Shown in pieces: positions 4,576 through 42,768 of a stretch of DNA of 42,768 bases; position 1 is the stretch's first letter; every line of letters starts with the position of its first letter. The position numbers were made by a program, and so were the translations under genes. The notes beneath the pieces were generated by a model. The model had not been told where the DNA came from. It saw only the letters and a list, made by a program, of their open reading frames with translations, and made no database searches. This stretch comes from a virus, in the IMG/VR virus record IMGVR_UViG_3300043421_000059, positions 1 to 42,768 of that record. One strand, written 5' to 3'.

Positions 4576-4784
4576 CAGCGCGCTACGTTCGCATTCCCAA
4601 GTTCTGCGAGGAGACTGGGTACACGGCTCGCGCCGTGGAAACGAAGATTCATCGCGGAGTCTGGGCCGAAGGCCGACAGTACCGCCGAGCCCCAGACGGC
4701 TGCATCTTTATCGACATGCAAGGATTTGAAAAATGGGTCGAAGGCCAGAAACAGGCGGAGTCCGCCCAAACCGCGACCGCATAG
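4572..4784 (+). CDS. xis: Excisionase (recombination directionality factor)
   Basis: Encodes 70 residues matching phage excisionases of the winged-helix type: YVRIPKFCEETGYTARAVETK, then GVWAEGRQYRRAPDG and FIDMQGFEKWVEG, the usual pattern ending in a KWVEG-like wing. Excisionases bind and bend attachment-site DNA so that integrase excises the prophage. The gene directly precedes integrase and overlaps it by 52 bases in another frame, which couples their expression. Its start overlaps the upstream stop (ATGA). Confidence 0.88.
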   Translation: MTARYVRIPKFCEETGYTARAVETKIHRGVWAEGRQYRRAPDGCIFIDMQGFEKWVEGQKQAESAQTATA

Positions 4785-5944
4785 AGGTGCGCTTCATGTG
4801 GCAGGGCAAGCAGATTGCCCCCACTCTGGACCTGAAGCCCACAGCGTCGAACCTGAAGCACGCGGCGCGCATTCGCGAAAAAGTGTTGCAGGAGATCGAG
4901 CGCGGCACCTTCAAGTTCAAGGACCACTTCCCCGATTACCGGCATGCCGCCAAGCTCCAGCCAGCCAGCGAGGAAGAGCAGCGCACGTTGACCGCGTGGG
5001 CCGAGACCTGGTATCTCCTGGCGGCCCGGTCCGTGGAGTTCTCCACGCTCAAGATCTACAAGCGCCACATGAAAGCCTACTGGCTGTCGGTGTTCGGGGA
5101 CATGCGGCCCGAGCAGGTAACCCACCGCATGGTGCTGGAGCGCCTGGCGTTTTTGGCACAAGACCGCTTTGACGAGGAGACGGGCAAGACGCACAAGGCA
5201 CTGAGCCGCAAGACGCAGAACAACATCATGATCCCGCTGCGCGGCGTGTTCGAGCTGGTGTGCAAGCCGCCCAGCACCTTGGCCAACCCCACGGATGGCA
5301 TCGACAACCTCAAGACGCAGAAGTCCAAGCCTGACCCATTCAGCCCGGCGGAAGTCGAAGAGATCCTGACCACCATCCGCCGCCAGTGGGGCGACGAGTT
5401 CCACGACTATTTCGAGTTCAGCATGTTCGCCGGCCTGCGTGCCAGCGAGCAGATCGCCCTGCTCTGGCAAGACGTAGAGCTGCGCACCGGCCGCGTGCTG
5501 GTGCACCGCTCCCGCGTGATGGGGCAGGACAAAGAGCGCACGAAGACTCACGTCGAGCGGGAGGTGGAGCTGAACGCCCGGGCATTGGGCGCCCTGCAGC
5601 GCCAGCGGGCCAGAACGCAGGCGAAGGGCCAGGAGGTTTTTCACAACCCAGCCACGGGCCGCGCCTATGTCGATGAGCAAAAGCAGCTGCAGGTGTGGAC
5701 TCGGAGCCTTCGGTCAAGCCAGGTCAGATACCGGCCGCCGAAGGAGTGTCGAGACACCAGCGTGACGCTTGCTCTCATGGCCGGGGCGAATCCGGTATGG
5801 GTTGCAAACCAGCACGGGCACAGCGTGCAGGTGATGATGCGGGACTATGCGAAGTGGATCCCGAACGCTGATCGAGGCTCGAATCTGGCCACCGTGAATG
5901 CAGCGTTGGGGTCACCTTCCGGGCGCCTCAAAACTGCGATTTAG
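4733..5944 (+). CDS. int: Tyrosine-family site-specific integrase
   Basis: Encodes 403 residues, a typical length for phage tyrosine recombinases. It has an N-terminal arm-binding region, a core-binding SAM-like domain (about 85-185) and a catalytic domain (about 200-380). Likely catalytic residues are Arg236 in FAGLRASEQ, Lys271, Arg340 in KECRDTS, His363 in QHGHS and nucleophile Tyr372 in RDYAKW. The His expected three residues before Arg340 is Lys337, a variation to check. AAGGA lies eight bases before the ATG. The stop codon itself overlaps the first arm-type repeat, and attP follows immediately. It catalyses phage integration into and excision from a host tRNA gene. Confidence 0.95.
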   Translation: MGRRPETGGVRPNRDRIEVRFMWQGKQIAPTLDLKPTASNLKHAARIREKVLQEIERGTFKFKDHFPDYRHAAKLQPASEEEQRTLTAWAETWYLLAARSVEFSTLKIYKRHMKAYWLSVFGDMRPEQVTHRMVLERLAFLAQDRFDEETGKTHKALSRKTQNNIMIPLRGVFELVCKPPSTLANPTDGIDNLKTQKSKPDPFSPAEVEEILTTIRRQWGDEFHDYFEFSMFAGLRASEQIALLWQDVELRTGRVLVHRSRVMGQDKERTKTHVEREVELNARALGALQRQRARTQAKGQEVFHNPATGRAYVDEQKQLQVWTRSLRSSQVRYRPPKECRDTSVTLALMAGANPVWVANQHGHSVQVMMRDYAKWIPNADRGSNLATVNAALGSPSGRLKTAI

Positions 5945-6156: not shown

Positions 6157-6450
6157 ATGACTGACTTGATCACCATGCTCGTAGAGGCAATCTATGCGGA
6201 GCCCCGCAAAGGCCGCTCCATGCCTGCGCGCATCGAACTGGAGCCCGACCTGTTCCGCCAGTTCCAGCGAGAGCACCGGGAGGCCCTGGCTGCCATGCTG
6301 CCAGAGGCCAACAACGTGTACCCCGGCTCACTGGCAGGCGTGCCGGTCGTTGAGGCGACGACACCAGGGGCGGTGCTGGTCCGGCTGGACGGCCGCCGTG
6401 ATGTGCTGGCGCTGCTGCCTATTTCTCAGGCGGCAGGCCTTCCGACTTAA
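6157..6450 (+). CDS. Small phage protein next to attP, unknown function
   Basis: Encodes 97 residues with a helical N-terminal half (LEPDLFRQFQREHREALAAML) and a strand-rich C-terminal half (GVPVVEATTPGAVLVRLDG). No family is recognised. It starts one base after the right arm-type repeat and overlaps the HEPN-like gene convergently by 32 bases. In the prophage it would lie at the chromosomal junction opposite integrase, a place where cargo genes are common. Confidence 0.6.
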   Translation: MTDLITMLVEAIYAEPRKGRSMPARIELEPDLFRQFQREHREALAAMLPEANNVYPGSLAGVPVVEATTPGAVLVRLDGRRDVLALLPISQAAGLPT

Positions 6451-6916
6451 GGCCGAGATTTTTGGTTGCCTTGAGTACGCCGCGGGCCAGAGTTTGGAGC
6501 CCTGAGATATCGTAGGAACCTCCGACGTATTCGTGAGCGTATCGAGCCACGACAAAGTAGTCATTGCATTTAACGAGCAAGGGCTGAAGGTCTTGCTGGG
6601 TAAGCGTTTTGAACTCCATCTCAAGATCAGCACGTATCGTCGCAGGCAGGCGCGTGAAAACTTCGGAGTGAAGTTTGTGCCCCCACGCGTCAGATTGTGT
6701 TCTGGCAGCAAGCACGAGACCATCTGTTGTTGGCGCTTCTACGTCAACGAAGCCTACCGTGGATTTAAGGGCTAGCTCCACGCTCAGGGCGTAGTTCACC
6801 ACCACGGGGTAAACCAGCCTGGCAAAGTCGTCTCCCTCAAATAGGGCATCAGCAGCTTTGCAAAATTGCTCAGCGCCAGTCCATATGCGACCGTTTGGTC
6901 GAATCGTCTTACTCAT
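6419..6916 (-). CDS. HEPN-like accessory protein
   Basis: Encodes 165 residues. The segment VVNYALSVELALKSTV followed by WGHKLHSEVFTRL matches the helix pattern of HEPN-type proteins (A..ELALK..., then GHKL...), which often act in RNA cleavage, toxin-antitoxin or abortive-infection systems. A canonical RX4-6H active-site motif is not evident; RYAH is the closest, so it may be catalytically inactive or of another class. The ATG at 6916 has AAGG seven bases upstream and is preferred to the one at 6922. It is less GC-rich than the structural genes and lies beside attP, typical of lysogenic cargo. Confidence 0.6.
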   Translation of the reverse strand: MSKTIRPNGRIWTGAEQFCKAADALFEGDDFARLVYPVVVNYALSVELALKSTVGFVDVEAPTTDGLVLAARTQSDAWGHKLHSEVFTRLPATIRADLEMEFKTLTQQDLQPLLVKCNDYFVVARYAHEYVGGSYDISGLQTLARGVLKATKNLGLKSEGLPPEK

Positions 6917-6964
6917 CGTCATACCTTCGTTGCGGTGCGATGCGCCATGCTAGCCGACTGACAT

Positions 6965-7234
6965 TCAGCCCCGCACCGCCCCATGCAGTGCCATCAGCCG
7001 CTGCGCGATGCCCTCGGGGTCGATCCTCATGTTGCTCATCGTGGTGGTGCCAACACAGACATGCTCGTACCAAATGTGGAACCCCGACAGATCGGGCATC
7101 TGGGCCTGGCTGCACTGCCTGATCGCTGCGGCGATGTTCGGGGCCCCCCACTGGTCCACCTCTTCCCGCCCATCCAGGACGAGCGCGCGATAGTTTCCAG
7201 GTTCAGTCTTGCTGATGTGCAGGGTTAAGAGCAT
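6965..7234 (-). CDS. Small accessory protein of unknown function
   Basis: Encodes 89 residues, starting with a strand-rich stretch (MLLTLHISKTEPGNYRALVL) and followed by helix-forming sequence. No family is recognised. It lies just downstream of a strong minus-strand terminator (7237-7263), so it needs its own promoter or readthrough. It precedes the HEPN-like gene by about 50 bases and may form a two-gene unit with it. Confidence 0.5.
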   Translation of the reverse strand: MLLTLHISKTEPGNYRALVLDGREEVDQWGAPNIAAAIRQCSQAQMPDLSGFHIWYEHVCVGTTTMSNMRIDPEGIAQRLMALHGAVRG

Positions 7235-7236
7235 GC

Positions 7237-7263
7237 AAAAAAATGCCCGCTTTGGAAGCGGGC
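7237..7263 (-). terminator. Intrinsic terminator of the membrane-protein operon
   Basis: GCCCGCTT (7245-7252) and AAGCGGGC (7256-7263) form an 8-bp GC-rich stem with a three-base loop. On the minus strand the stem is followed by ATTTTTTT. It lies 23 bases beyond the stop at 7286 and marks the end of the two-gene membrane cassette. Confidence 0.9.
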
Positions 7264-7285
7264 AGTGCGGTCTGCAGATGGTTCT

Positions 7286-7918
7286 CTAAGCAAAACGTCG
7301 ATTTGCAAACGAGCACTGTTCAACCACCGATTGATCAAGAAACATGTCTGCAACTTTGGAACCTGTGGCTTCTGCAATGCTGTGAGTTGTTCTGCCAAAG
7401 TGACGGAGCGAATGCAGGGCCAAGCGAGCAAAGGCCGCAAAGCCCCGCGTCATCGCTTCGCACACCATTTTCAAAAAGACGATGGGCGCAGCAATCGCAC
7501 TCACCAAAATGAAGAAGACCGAGGTCTGGATTGCAAACTCAATAACCGCATGCAAGGCGTGCTGACGCACCTGCTGAATGTACTTCGCCTGCCCCTCCGG
7601 CAATCGCACAAAAAGCTCTCCTGCCTTCTTCTGCATGTCCGCAATGACCTCAGGTTTATCTTTCAAAGAGGCCTGAACAAATATGATTTTCCATACAGAC
7701 ATGTCCTCAATAAACCGAAGGTGCGAATTGATGGAGTCGCGTGCGAATTTGTACCCCTCACCGTCAAGCGACCAGCCATTAGCGACGAAGGTGCTCCTCA
7801 ATTGATCTCGGCAATCGAATAATTTATCTCGCGCATCGTCAAGCAAAGATCGCTTGAGTGCAAACCTCCACATTGCCATAACAAGAAGCGATGCGACGAC
7901 GAAGTGTAGGATTTCCAT
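7286..7918 (-). CDS. Membrane protein, second gene of a two-gene accessory operon
   Basis: Encodes 210 residues. A hydrophobic helix at residues 2-18 and a second, longer one at about 128-156 (EFAIQTSVFFILVSAIAAPI) flank a charged helical domain. No family is recognised. The ATG at 7918 is chosen because TGAGG lies six bases upstream. It follows the 125-residue membrane protein gene within about 15 bases and ends at a strong terminator. AT content is visibly higher than in the structural genes, suggesting acquisition as cargo. A role in superinfection exclusion or defence is plausible from location and topology but unproven. Confidence 0.65.
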   Translation of the reverse strand: MEILHFVVASLLVMAMWRFALKRSLLDDARDKLFDCRDQLRSTFVANGWSLDGEGYKFARDSINSHLRFIEDMSVWKIIFVQASLKDKPEVIADMQKKAGELFVRLPEGQAKYIQQVRQHALHAVIEFAIQTSVFFILVSAIAAPIVFLKMVCEAMTRGFAAFARLALHSLRHFGRTTHSIAEATGSKVADMFLDQSVVEQCSFANRRFA

Positions 7919-7933
7919 ATTTGGCCTCACTGT

Positions 7934-8311
7934 TCAAGCTGGCGTATTGCCTTCTGCATCAAGATCGCTAGAGGCGTTGTAAGGATCTTTTGCTTCAGAT
8001 CCATGACGATGCTCTGCCAATTTACGGATTGCCCGCTTTTTACCCTTTCGCTCCAAGTACCAAGCGCCACCCAGGCCGGCCGTCAAAATCGAATGAGCAA
8101 TCGTCGAGACTTTCATCTTCTCTACCAGTCCTCCAAGAGCTTCAATGGATGCCGGGTTGTTGTTGCCGAGCGCCTTTAAGGTGTCAAAAAACATGTAGCC
8201 GAGGAAGGCGATTAGCACGTATTTCATGGCGTTGGTCAACAAATCAACAAACACGCCAAATTTCTGGGCTCCGATGCCCGCCCTTCTCGCTTCGAGTTCG
8301 TTTTTGTTCAT
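7934..8311 (-). CDS. Small two-TM membrane protein, first gene of the cassette
   Basis: Encodes 125 residues. Predicted membrane segments lie at about 28-46 (AMKYVLIAFLGYMFFDTL) and 68-86 (VSTIAHSILTAGLGGAW), followed by a basic, then acidic cytoplasmic-type tail (ERKGKKRAIRKLAEHRHGSE). No family is recognised. It has its own AT-rich upstream region with a TATGAT box (complement of 8335-8340), so the pair may be expressed from the prophage independently of late transcription. Probable partner of the protein encoded directly downstream. Confidence 0.65.
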   Translation of the reverse strand: MNKNELEARRAGIGAQKFGVFVDLLTNAMKYVLIAFLGYMFFDTLKALGNNNPASIEALGGLVEKMKVSTIAHSILTAGLGGAWYLERKGKKRAIRKLAEHRHGSEAKDPYNASSDLDAEGNTPA

Positions 8312-8467
8312 GTCTGCCTCTCAAGACGGCGGCGATCATAAACACAACGGGCAGGAAAAGTAAGAAAAAGTTTCCTACTTCCTATGATGGTAGGGGCGTG
8401 GACTAGTTCCGGCAAGTAGGACTAGACCTATTGCCGAATAGCGGTAGAACGTCAGGTACGCAAGGGA
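8312..8467. promoter_or_regulatory. AT-rich intergenic region upstream of the membrane cassette
   Basis: This 156-base gap is AT-richer than its surroundings. It contains a minus-strand TATGAT box (8335-8340) upstream of the 125-residue membrane protein, an A/T-rich stretch around 8358-8376, and a short inverted repeat CTATTGCCGAATAG near 8430. It is the likely promoter region of the cassette. The -35 element is not clear. Confidence 0.4.
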
Positions 8468-8758
8468 TCAGGTGCGGAGGCGATCTGGTGGCAAGGTGAT
8501 GGTTCCCAAGCTACCAGAAGAACGCGGCCGAATCCAATGGACCCACAGTCCCTTGACCCAGGCCAGTGCGCAAACCACCGCCACAACGCCGACGCCCCAT
8601 TGGCCGCTGGCCCAGACCGACCAGAACCAGAATGGCTGACTGATCAGGCCGACGATGCAGGCCCAGCGCTGGAACTGCATGGTTCGGCTCTGCGACAGCC
8701 AGATGGCTGCAGGGCCAAGGACGGCGAGAGCGGATTGGACGATCTGATCGGGCGGCAT
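8468..8758 (-). CDS. Small hydrophobic phage membrane protein
   Basis: Encodes 96 residues with three hydrophobic segments (about 5-20, 31-49, 53-73) rich in Trp and Phe, including ISQPFWFWSVWASGQWG. Small membrane proteins with a QPFW(F/Y) stretch like this are common hypothetical genes in phages, often near lysis genes; I do not know a tested function. It is a possible second holin or antiholin, but it lies on the far side of hicAB from the lysis cluster. It is transcribed divergently from hicA. Confidence 0.6.
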   Translation of the reverse strand: MPPDQIVQSALAVLGPAAIWLSQSRTMQFQRWACIVGLISQPFWFWSVWASGQWGVGVVAVVCALAWVKGLWVHWIRPRSSGSLGTITLPPDRLRT

Positions 8759-38690: not shown

Positions 38691-38936
38691 TCAGGCCTCG
38701 GCCTTCATTGCCAAGTCGGGCCAGATTCGGTGCCAGTCGCCAGGGCGGAGATCGCGGCGTGTGACTGCTCCCCCAGTAGCAGTTTCAATCGCAAGGCAGT
38801 AGGCCGGGCCAGGTTTGCGCTTGGCGTAACCGTGTTGCCACTGGCGAATCTGCGCATCGCTACGGGCCCCAATTTGCGAGCGGAGATCCGCCACGCTCAG
38901 TGCGTCGGGTAGCGCAAGATATTCAGAGAGCTTCAT
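38691..38936 (-). CDS. Cro/YdaS-like DNA-binding protein
   Basis: Encodes 81 residues with a YdaS/DicC-type helix-turn-helix (SVADLRSQIGARSDAQIRQW) and the KPGPAYCLAIETATGGAVTR segment typical of this family. It lies divergent from the CI-type repressor and starts the right operon, so it is the Cro-like early regulator. The ATG at 38936 is chosen because residues of the longer frame run into operator sequence; it overlaps a spurious plus-strand ATG at 38935. Confidence 0.85.
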   Translation of the reverse strand: MKLSEYLALPDALSVADLRSQIGARSDAQIRQWQHGYAKRKPGPAYCLAIETATGGAVTRRDLRPGDWHRIWPDLAMKAEA

Positions 38937-38946
38937 GAAGCCCGAA

Positions 38947-39002
38947 TCTATAGCAATTGCTACCGATTTGCAAGTAGCCAATGCTCTTGTAGCACCTGCT
39001 AC
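38947..39002. promoter_or_regulatory. OR-like operator region between cro and the repressor
   Basis: Three 14-mers related to GTAGCANNTGCTAC: ATAGCAATTGCTAC (38950-38963), GTAGCCAATGCTCT (38974-38987, weaker) and GTAGCACCTGCTAC (38989-39002). A minus-strand promoter for cro, with -35 TTGCAA (38968-38973) and -10 TATAGA (38947-38952), overlaps the first site. The same motif occurs twice at 41322-41360. Confidence 0.75.
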
Positions 39003-39012
39003 TGTCGAAAAC

Positions 39013-39711
39013 ATGGAAGAACACCAAATTCAGGCGTGGCGAATCGAGCGACTGGCCGCCATGGTCGAGCGCGAGGGAGGCAAGGCCCCAGCGGGAAGGA
39101 AGCTCGGCTACAAGGACGGCGCTTTTGTCGGCCAGATGCTTCGTGGAGAACGGCCCATCACCGAGAAAACCGTCTTGGCCGTGCACGCGCTTTCAGGATA
39201 TGCAGGCTGGTTCAACGAAGGCGCGGGCGAAGTCGCAGCCCTGCCGGTGGCTTCGCTCACCCCCTCACCATCGCCAGGCGTGCCGGTGGTTCATGTCCCC
39301 CTGCTGGCCAACGCTGGCAGCATGGGCCCAGGCACGGACATCCAGCACGACGACATCCTGGTGGGGCAGATCGCTCTGTCAGAGCAGTGGGTATCGCGGC
39401 GCCTGCAGCCGACAAACTTGAATGCCCTTAGGTTCATTCACGCCTACGGCGACAGCATGAGCCCGACTTTTGAGGACGGCGACATTCTTTTGGTGGACAC
39501 CGGGATCAAAGATCCCAGAATCATTGATGGCGTCTACGTCATGGCCGCCAACGACCGCGTTTACATCAAACGCGTGCGCCAGCGCATGGATGGCGTGGTG
39601 GAGATCAGCAGCGACAACGCCACGGTGAAGACGGTGGATGTGCTCAATGGGGATCACCGAATCGACATACTGGGCCGCGTCGTGTGGTGCTGGAACGGGC
39701 GGAAGCTGTAA
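39013..39711 (+). CDS. CI-type phage repressor with S24 peptidase domain
   Basis: Encodes 232 residues. An N-terminal DNA-binding region (about 5-60, IERLAAMVEREGGKAPAGRK) is joined by a Pro/Ser linker to a LexA/S24 domain: nucleophile Ser148 in GDSMSPTFEDGD, general base Lys186 in YIKRV, and an Ala-Gly site at 101-102 in LLANAGS as the probable cleavage point. It is expected to repress cro and early operons and to self-cleave on RecA activation. The ATG at 39013, just beyond the operators and without Shine-Dalgarno sequence, suggests a leaderless transcript. Confidence 0.92.
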   Translation: MEEHQIQAWRIERLAAMVEREGGKAPAGRKLGYKDGAFVGQMLRGERPITEKTVLAVHALSGYAGWFNEGAGEVAALPVASLTPSPSPGVPVVHVPLLANAGSMGPGTDIQHDDILVGQIALSEQWVSRRLQPTNLNALRFIHAYGDSMSPTFEDGDILLVDTGIKDPRIIDGVYVMAANDRVYIKRVRQRMDGVVEISSDNATVKTVDVLNGDHRIDILGRVVWCWNGRKL

Positions 39712-39803: not shown

Positions 39804-40259
39804 ATGAATGATGCCCCTGAGTCGGAAGCGCGGGCGCTGCTGTCCCGCCCGTTGTCATGCGAGGATGCCCCTCCATGGTCTTTCAATAAACTCAAGCCGG
39901 GCCTGGCCACTTTGGAATGCGGGCTGATAAATGAGGACAGGTCAAGGTCCGGGCTGCACATACAGCTACAGTTCGCCCGCTCCCCAAAGACGCATGTGGT
40001 GTCATTCAAATTCACGGTGTTCCGAATGAACCTTGGGGCACCGCAGAGGGTCTATCAGATCCAGGTAAATGCAGTCGCGCGGGCTCCAAAGAACTGGCAC
40101 GACATAGTGCATGAGCATTTTGGCGATGCAAGAGTCCCTGGCAACGAGGCATGGTTGTCCTGGGGATACAACGAGGCAATTGACTATTTTTGCGAAAGAA
40201 CGAACATCACATTTGTGCCACCGCTCTCGGATCCCGAGGCCTTTGAGTTGAGATCATGA
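39804..40259 (+). CDS. Repressor-linked gene A, unknown function
   Basis: Encodes 151 residues. Predicted mixed helix-strand, with SFKFTVFRMNLGAPQRVYQIQ, RAPKNWHDIVHEHFGD and WLSWGYNEAIDYFCER. No family is recognised. It is transcribed in the same direction as the repressor and overlaps the DUF1828-type gene (ATGA), so the two form an operon expected to be active in the lysogen. GC content is clearly lower than in the structural genes, a sign of acquisition. Possible defence, exclusion or toxin-antitoxin component. Confidence 0.6.
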   Translation: MNDAPESEARALLSRPLSCEDAPPWSFNKLKPGLATLECGLINEDRSRSGLHIQLQFARSPKTHVVSFKFTVFRMNLGAPQRVYQIQVNAVARAPKNWHDIVHEHFGDARVPGNEAWLSWGYNEAIDYFCERTNITFVPPLSDPEAFELRS

Positions 40260-41008
40260 TCTGCCACCAACTTTCGAAACTGCTGGGTTTTGAATGCTCT
40301 CCGCTAACGGATGGCGGCGATGTCGCGCTCGTCTCAACTCCATTCAAATTTGACGATGGAGACGCTATTCCTGTCTTCGTGGAGAAGGTTCATGGGCAGG
40401 TGAGATTCTTCGATGATGGTGGCGCACTGATGCACTTTATCGGCCGTGGTGTTCGGATCGAGAACAAAAAGCAAGCCACTTTTCTGGTCAATGCAGCGGC
40501 CAAGAACGGGGCCGTTTTTAGCGACAGCGGAGACATTGAGGCATGGGCCAGCCTGGAAAAGGCGCACGAAGCATTTGCCAAGTTTCTCGCGTCCATGTTG
40601 GACCTTGCCTCGTGGGAGAGGGAGCAGCGCGGGTCCAACACCGACACCTCACTTTTTGTTGAGGAAGTGGCGCTTGCGTTGCGCGCGTGGAAACCGAGCG
40701 CGGACATCACGGTGGGGCCGCCGTTCATGGGAGTGTCTGGAAAGACTCACAAACTGGACTTCCTTGTGGATGGCAAAGGAGTTATCGCCACTGGAATCCA
40801 CCCCAATGCGATCAGCTCTATGCTTCATAGGCTCATTGACATCCGAGGGTTAATAGCCAATGCGGACACCCCATTCCTCATAGTGATTGATGACCGGACA
40901 GATCCAGATGCAGCAGAGCGAGAATCGAAGGTTGTGCAAGCAGTTGCTACGGCAATGAAGTTCACTGATTTGGAGCGAAACGCATTCAGGTCAGGGACGC
41001 TGCAATAA
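40256..41008 (+). CDS. DUF1828/DUF1829-type protein (repressor-linked gene B)
   Basis: Encodes 250 residues. The N-terminal part (about 1-90, PFKFDDGDAIPVFVEK followed by VRFFDDGGALMHFIGRG) matches DUF1828; the C-terminal part (about 130-240, including KLDFLVDGKGVIATGIHP) matches DUF1829. Its function is not established in what I know. A linked strand-helix core might be nuclease-like, but no full PD-(D/E)xK motif is visible. It overlaps the upstream gene (ATGA) and has lower GC content than phage structural genes. Confidence 0.75.
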   Translation: MICHQLSKLLGFECSPLTDGGDVALVSTPFKFDDGDAIPVFVEKVHGQVRFFDDGGALMHFIGRGVRIENKKQATFLVNAAAKNGAVFSDSGDIEAWASLEKAHEAFAKFLASMLDLASWEREQRGSNTDTSLFVEEVALALRAWKPSADITVGPPFMGVSGKTHKLDFLVDGKGVIATGIHPNAISSMLHRLIDIRGLIANADTPFLIVIDDRTDPDAAERESKVVQAVATAMKFTDLERNAFRSGTLQ

Positions 41009-41047: not shown

Positions 41048-41245
41048 CCATGCCCACTCGCCCGACTCGGGCGTTACCCCTGGCGGGGTGACTGGGTGGC
41101 CCAGGCCTGGCGGCTGCGGATAGGGGACTGAGGCGCACGACGCGGCGCCGTCTGACACGCAGCGGCCTGTGACCGCCCTACTATTTCCTTGCCGCTAGCC
41201 GCTTGCGGCATCCCTCCCCTCCTCGCTGCAATAGCGAGGTTCAAG

Positions 41246-41271
41246 CCCACCCACTGAGGTGGGTTTTTTTT
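41246..41271 (+). terminator. Intrinsic terminator upstream of the early promoter
   Basis: CCCACC (41246-41251) pairs with GGTGGG (41258-41263) around a six-base loop, followed by eight T. It separates upstream plus-strand transcription (repressor-linked operon or small RNA) from the early operon promoter at 41335-41363. Confidence 0.9.
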
Positions 41272-41320
41272 CGTCCGAGCAGGACTACGTACTCGCATAA
41301 GTAGCTGAAACCAAAAACAA

Positions 41321-41363
41321 TGTAGCAAATGCTATTTACTCAATCAATAGCATTTGCTACATT
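41321..41363 (+). promoter_or_regulatory. OL-like operators and early promoter
   Basis: A perfect 16-bp inverted repeat (41321-41336 and 41346-41361) contains two 14-mers of the OR motif: GTAGCAAATGCTAT (41322-41335) and ATAGCATTTGCTAC (41347-41360), 25 bases centre to centre. A promoter TTTACT (41335-41340), 17-base spacer, TACATT (41358-41363) runs through them. Binding of the CI-type repressor would block the plus-strand early operon. Confidence 0.75.
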
Positions 41364-41436: not shown

Positions 41437-41922
41437 TCAGGCCAGCGCTCTCGCGAGACGCTGCACCCAGGTTTCAGCCATCAGAGAGCTGGTGTTGCCG
41501 ATCGCGTTCAGAGTCGCGTTGTAGGCCGGGACGGCAAGCGCATCCACGCCCGTCGGCGAATCACTCCTCGCCTTCATCAAGGCGGAATTCAGGTCGTCGT
41601 AAGCCATACCCCACGCCTTTGCCTCCAGGGCGAGATATTCGCACTTGGCGCGACGGTGCCGCTCGGACTTGATCGCCGGCTGCACCAGCAAAGCGACAGC
41701 AGCAGTGACTGCAAGGCCAACCCCGGACGCGGCCAAAAGCGGAGAGTTTCCTTGCATGACGCCAAACGCTGCTGCGCTTCCCCCCACCAGTTGAACAACG
41801 TTCAAAACGAAGTCCAACCGTGTGTAAAGCCGTTCGCACATATGGTTGAACCAGTAACCGTACCGCACGTTGGTTACCAGCTCTGCGTGGGTTACTTCAG
41901 GTGCTTGAGTGGTGTTGCTCAT
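41437..41922 (-). CDS. SLATT-like two-TM accessory protein
   Basis: Encodes 161 residues. Two membrane segments (about 37-56 and 61-81) are followed by KSERHRRAKCEYLALEAKAW and a helical tail, the pattern of SLATT-type two-TM domains found in bacterial conflict systems. The N-terminus has MSNTTQAPEVTHAELV. It lies antisense inside the early plus operon and behind its own promoter, the hallmark of a lysogenic moron. Function by family analogy: possible membrane-disrupting effector or superinfection exclusion. No partner sensor domain is present nearby. Confidence 0.6.
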   Translation of the reverse strand: MSNTTQAPEVTHAELVTNVRYGYWFNHMCERLYTRLDFVLNVVQLVGGSAAAFGVMQGNSPLLAASGVGLAVTAAVALLVQPAIKSERHRRAKCEYLALEAKAWGMAYDDLNSALMKARSDSPTGVDALAVPAYNATLNAIGNTSSLMAETWVQRLARALA

Positions 41923-42535: not shown

Positions 42536-42661
42536 ATGAAACAGATCGCACTCTTCTGCCGCTTGGCCGGCATGCGCCGCACCGCTGGCGCTGGGCCGCT
42601 TGAGTCAGCCACCTGGGCAGCCGGCCTGTTGTGGCGCGCTCGCCGAGGGGCTGCCCTGTGA
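42536..42661 (+). CDS. Small early protein of 41 residues
   Basis: Encodes 41 residues (MKQIALFCRLAGMRRTAGAG start, basic end RARRG). The ATG at 42536 has AAAGGA five bases upstream and is preferred to the ATG at 42530. The stop overlaps the GTG of the next early gene (GTGA at 42658). In the left-end copy of this sequence an extra G destroys the overlap. Confidence 0.55.
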   Translation: MKQIALFCRLAGMRRTAGAGPLESATWAAGLLWRARRGAAL

Positions 42662-42768
42662 ACCTCGAACTCACTGGAGAAGAAACTGGCGAAGAGCTGG
42701 TGAAACTGCTGGTCAAGGTGCGCCATAACGCCCGCATCCTGGACAAAGCGCGCACCGGTTTTCAATCG
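42629..42768. repeat. Right copy of terminal direct repeat
   Basis: These 140 bases repeat positions 1-141 apart from a missing G (run of four instead of five). Subtracting them gives a unit genome length near 42.63 kb. Confidence 0.95.
42658..42768 (+). CDS. Start of the early gene at 31-648, cut by the window end
   Basis: The GTG at 42658 overlaps the stop of the 41-residue gene and begins the same protein that runs from 31 to 648 in the left copy. Only the first 37 codons fall inside the window. This is not a second gene: it is the repeated end of a circular sequence. Confidence 0.9.
   Translation, partial: MNLELTGEETGEELVKLLVKVRHNARILDKARTGFQS

Follow-up and report, generated by a model that had tools for sequence, protein, structure and literature searches.

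A phage-borne gene pair in the rexAB position: a candidate toxin-antitoxin-like defence cassette of an H-x-H protein and a DUF1828 protein

In phage lambda and in the RexAB-type system of P. putida, two genes are situated between the repressor and OL/N, where expression in the lysogen is expected (PMC11077077; PMC12894663). The 434 Hex protein, which is expressed from the repressor's own transcript, is reported to modulate the lysogeny switch (PMC3564112). Among toxin-antitoxin systems, TumE of the DUF6516 superfamily is a translation-blocking toxin in which two helices pack on a seven-stranded antiparallel sheet; in most tumAE pairs the toxin is not encoded first, and TumA is a RelB-like or small DNA-binding partner (PMC10584680). 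The validated HipAD/DS-6 system carries DUF1829 in its antitoxin-like subunit, for which AlphaFold3 predicts binding of both toxin and DNA, while DS-5 pairs an RNase with a partner whose loss is not toxic (PMC13092281). The anticodon nuclease PrrC is reported to be silenced by a type I restriction-modification (R-M) system until an anti-restriction factor of a phage activates it (PMC2610378). Finally, PADLOC-DB contains a computed candidate system, PDC-M24, which consists of a DUF6978-type component (M24A) and a DUF1828-type component (M24B). A search of open-licence full texts returned no experimental or functional study of PDC-M24, DUF1828 or DUF6978, although a paper could exist elsewhere, and DUF1829 was named there solely in the HipAD context.

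The DNA analysed here, referred to as the window, is the complete stretch of 42,768 nt of the viral record IMGVR_UViG_3300043421_000059. It is the genome of a temperate tailed phage, encoding an integrase (4733-5941), terminase, portal, head, tape-measure and tail proteins, a helicase and an Ant-type antirepressor. Since bases 1-141 are repeated at 42629-42768 with one gap, the genome is probably complete. Near the integrase, a low-GC patch (6500-8500, approximately 0.50 compared to 0.62) with minus-strand ORFs at 6419-6922 and 7286-7930 represents possible further cargo.

The features of the immunity region are compiled in Table 1. Two genes, here termed A and B, follow a CI-type repressor on the same strand after a gap of 92 bp and overlap each other by 4 bp (ATGA). 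Their GC contents of 0.546 (A) and 0.537 (B) lie below the 0.620 of the whole window. The original prediction of two overlapping, lower-GC genes transcribed in the same direction as an upstream CI-type repressor thus agrees with the coordinates, the overlap, the base composition and the S24 match of the repressor, whose true start may instead be the ATG at 39013, as judged from the sequence. The proposed link to lysogeny and the cargo character of the pair were likewise supported. The start position of A agrees with that of its relatives L058 and L064.

Table 1. Features of the immunity region, in positions of the window.
Feature	Position	Strand	Remarks
Operator-like palindromes, TAGCAATTGCTA and two weaker copies	38951..39001		cI 5' end, between the divergent YdaS/Cro-like gene and the repressor
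CI-type repressor, S24 peptidase fold	38935..39711	+	Pfam Peptidase_S24, 1.7e-15; phrog_4 (transcriptional repressor), 4.3e-28
Gene A, 151 aa, H-x-H protein, proposed toxin	39804..40259	+	Divergent member of the DUF6978-containing partner superfamily
H-x-H motif codons (H103, E104, H105) of A	40110..40118	+	Invariant in the alignment; H-x-H in 45/46 partners
Gene B, 250 aa, DUF1828 and DUF1829-like C-terminal half	40256..41008	+	Proposed neutraliser/sensor
Terminator-like hairpin and T-tract, probable end of the cI-A-B transcript	41243..41266	+	Consensus match only
Second operator-like pair, TAGCAAATGCTA and TAGCATTTGCTA, perfect 18-bp inverted repeat	41319..41363		OL-like edge of the immunity region

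The cI-A-B region is flanked by candidate operators. The exact palindrome TAGCAWWTGCTA occurs three times in the window, with one copy at the 5' end of cI (38951) and the other two downstream of B (41323 and 41348). Allowing up to two mismatches, eight sites were identified where 2.0 are expected, a number reached in none of 100 shuffles. Identical 9-mers common to both operator-like regions were not found because the sites are degenerate palindromes, and the pattern search was used as evidence instead. With these sites as putative operators, the layout looks like OR - cI - A - B - OL, as in lambda, with A-B replacing rexAB. A hairpin follows B and the gap that separates cI from A shows no consensus promoter, which suggests that A-B is probably expressed together with cI in the lysogen. 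Next after the OL-like site lies a minus-strand gene (41437-41922, 161 aa) with a hydrophobic middle, which matches only phrog_11791 and phrog_6315, both of unassigned function; inspected by eye, its product could be a small two-helix membrane protein and another possible exclusion gene.

Gene A of the window shows no match in Pfam (including its kinase families), NCBIfam or PADLOC and only a weak match to phrog_2017 (0.0012). Its counterparts at other loci match DUF6978 (Pfam PF22398), a domain detected in 16 of 39 members of the A superfamily, as well as PDC-M24A, both of which the window protein misses. The partner of B, initially described as unrecognised, is hence better placed, as a divergent member, in the superfamily to which DUF6978 belongs. 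Across 12 aligned A proteins, W25, R82, H103, H105 and F129 are invariant. The AlphaFold2 model, built with 16 homologues (mean pLDDT 89.5, pTM 0.85), predicts one helix at each terminus and, between them, a long antiparallel sheet followed by a strand bearing the H-x-H motif. No PDB match was obtained at E≤0.001, and BFVD gave a single strong match, to an uncharacterised protein of a siphovirus.

Gene B matches DUF1828 (Pfam PF08861, 1.2e-10; 41.9 bits against a curated cut-off of 22), phrog_1960 (4.8e-45) and the PADLOC model PDC-M24B (PDLC04539, 2.8e-11). It had been described as a protein of DUF1828/DUF1829 type; the first domain stands, while DUF1829 (Pfam PF08862) shows no match at E≤1 in the window protein and appears, together with DUF1828, in the full-length homologue L003. 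D53 is invariant in all 46 B proteins. The predicted structure (pLDDT 82.7, pTM 0.52) is that of a soluble alpha/beta protein. Because no DNA-binding domain is recognisable by Pfam and the fold search gave no significant match (best E 0.01-0.06, TM about 0.2-0.3), the role of B is one that we infer. Bax1, MUS81-EME1 and an R2 retrotransposon protein, which are unrelated to one another, are among the top insignificant PDB matches, and all three have restriction-endonuclease-like folds. This would fit a defence system other than a toxin-antitoxin pair, namely one effector complex directed against phage nucleic acid or replication, in which the C-terminal half of B would be nuclease-like, A would have an enzymatic or sensing function and neither protein would be toxic alone. 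The DS-5 precedent (PMC13092281) and the defence neighborhoods of relatives described below are in line with such a complex. We nevertheless consider it somewhat unlikely: the fold matches of B are insignificant, no conserved catalytic lysine was seen in the B alignment, and the conserved putative catalytic motif is located in A, not in B. For the first two of these reasons, an assignment of B as a nuclease was not adopted.

Direct searches yielded few relatives: in phage records, single-protein queries returned no match for window A and eight records for B, none were obtained for window B in plasmids, and none from single-protein queries in viral contigs. Alignments were therefore needed as queries. 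The 46 dereplicated DUF1828 loci collected from viral contigs and genomes do not represent 46 independent events, since B served to find them and loci of one clade are related to each other. Every one of them carries a partner ORF of 100-360 aa directly upstream of B. The suspected partnership of the two genes is thereby borne out, and in this collection it is obligatory. An H-x-H motif is present in 45 of the 46 partners, the exception being L088; for comparison, the motif occurs in two of the 46 B proteins and in 17% of background ORFs of comparable length, which are mostly spurious. Starting solely from the five A proteins of the window's clade, an iterated HMM run against 2,141 ORFs recovered 44 of the 46 partners and no unrelated ORF; its one extra hit is the remainder of the L082 partner. 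The two partners missed, L087 and L088, possibly belong to a different family in the same slot. Decayed copies were also observed: in L099, A is interrupted by an internal TAG and B is shortened, and A of L088 carries an apparent frameshift relative to L087.

The pairwise distances of A and B are closely correlated (r=0.95 for 43 loci and r=0.96 for 14 phage loci). The distances of A or B to those of the adjacent repressors are not matched in this way, with r=0.12-0.18, values reached by 278 and 119 of 2,000 permutations. In the examined pairs with 66-90% identity in both A and B, the neighboring repressors are only 11-30% identical. A and B are thus co-inherited while repressors are swapped, leading to the conclusion that the pair moves as one cassette. 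Between close relatives, purifying selection acts on both genes: dN/dS amounts to about 0.02-0.25 for pairs with measurable dS, a range that leaves out the window and its nearest relatives, whose synonymous sites are saturated. The same order and spacing of homologues in many phages and bacteria, together with purifying selection, identify A and B as real genes. The position directly after the repressor in many phages, probably within one transcript unit, could also indicate that A-B acts on the lysogeny switch of the resident prophage, for instance via repressor stability or level. The divergence of the repressors next to closely similar A-B pairs, as well as the occurrence of A-B in hsd operons without any repressor, render this highly improbable.

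The order repressor - A - B is shared by three annotated phages, one each from E. coli, Pseudomonas and Helicobacter, and the homologues of the pair in ev207, a lambdoid phage, lie exactly between the repressor and N. The 36 genes found upstream of A include 14 S24 repressors, 13 HTH_3 matches and four HsdS specificity subunits. In bacteria, related pairs are found inside type I R-M operons after hsdS or next to other defence genes: locus L103 is organized as hsdM ... hsdS - A - B - hsdR, with an opposite-strand ORF between B and hsdR that we read as PemK-like, and L101 (135-7830) as hsdM - x - hsdS - A - B followed by a TOTE primase-helicase. In this hsd-like operon, the TOTE-conflict primase-helicase occupies the expected place of hsdR. 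Locus L116 has A-B ahead of the genes for a DNA methylase and a ResIII helicase, which together resemble a type III pair, and in L105 A-B follows a Fic gene. The association with R-M operons supports a role in defence. Furthermore, a Giesbergeria MAG has close copies, and 12 of the 301 genomes from its family carry B. The E. coli version was identified at ≥99% identity in 239 of 5,426 complete E. coli genomes, with one copy each and most of the pair covered in 237, and a near-identical copy exists in the lambdoid phages ev017 and ev207.

Two small overlapping genes on mobile elements, of which broken remains exist (L099), might also be expected of a prophage addiction or stabilisation module without any anti-phage function. 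We regard this as decidedly unlikely, as both R-M operons and the rex slot are places of defence genes and an addiction module would have no obvious reason to sit between hsdS and hsdR, as in L103. Instead, the presence of related pairs both beside prophage repressors and inside bacterial restriction systems suggests that A-B probably serves as a toxin-antitoxin-like means of defence against competing phages. Our best explanation, to which we give about an even chance, is a mobile anti-phage cassette that is expressed in the lysogen and acts by abortive infection, with A as the toxic effector and B as its neutraliser and sensor. In this model, A and B would be made in the lysogen from a cI-A-B transcript ending at the hairpin listed in Table 1, in the slot of rexAB. 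B would bind and silence A and, in addition, serve as the sensor of infection. An invading phage that disturbs B, or the target bound by B, would cause the release of A, which is most likely a TumE-like RNase with an R...H-x-H arrangement on an antiparallel sheet. Translation would then stop and the infection would be aborted.

A bolder version, which we consider unlikely, would see A-B as a portable alarm cassette that plugs into prophage repressor or type I hsd operons, where B would read the state of the neighboring system or target and A would represent a new TumE-like RNase branch that stops translation once this system is overcome. If true, the same module would serve phage-phage competition and back up restriction. 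DUF1828 and DUF6978 are both widespread, and the open-licence literature yielded no function for either family. Here they appear as one obligatory pair, and the movement of a conserved H-x-H effector candidate between the prophage rex slot and restriction operons provides a specific hypothesis with named residues. The E. coli genome copies and phages ev017 and ev207 offer convenient test material.

Compared to the systems introduced above, the cassette shares with RexAB the presence of two genes between the repressor and OL/N and the expected expression in the lysogen. However, RexB is a membrane protein, whereas the model of B is that of a soluble alpha/beta protein. No similarity of A-B to RexA was found among PDB sequences or the listed fold matches, and homology to RexA/RexB was rejected by sequence and fold searches.

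With TumE-TumA, the cassette has in common the two-gene organization and an H-x-H that follows a strand pair; the TumE members examined carry DN...GDHRH. The predicted model of A, a small alpha+beta protein with an antiparallel sheet and two packing helices, resembles the published description of TumE. In contrast, the gene order is reversed, with the proposed toxin first, and B is unlike TumA. The A-superfamily HMM detected one TumE with E 0.001 among 171 ORFs over most of the domain, and none of 200 motif-keeping shuffles scored as well; of the other TumE proteins, four beat at least 95% of the shuffles and three do not. The Pfam model of TumE (PF20126) matches no A protein, and the hhalign profile-profile comparison was not significant (E 0.05-0.4, like the controls). 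Given the failure of these two approaches, A was not accepted as a member of TumE. Because the sequence evidence for common descent is weak, we describe A as a protein that perhaps works like TumE rather than as a TumE.

The presence of DUF1829 in the antitoxin-like subunit of HipAD favors B as the neutraliser. HipAD differs in having a HipA-type kinase toxin and a partner with DUF3037, while A is a 151-aa alpha+beta non-kinase and B a DUF1828 protein. For PrrC, the likeness is that hsd operons harbor a candidate RNase effector, and its regulatory logic would fit A-B by analogy, with no homology claimed (PMC2610378).

PDC-M24 has the same gene order, with A directly upstream of B on the same strand. 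B matches M24B directly and A falls in the same superfamily by iterated HMM; the A proteins of seven or more relatives match the M24A models, window A none at E≤1. As window A fails these models, we treat the pair as related to PDC-M24 but divergent, and not as a member. The original suggestion of an undescribed system is only partly correct: the wider group already figures as a computed candidate in PADLOC-DB, and PHROGs lists the two families (2017 and 1960) with no function assigned. The window lineage differs from PDC-M24 in being phage-borne and in its location in a repressor operon.
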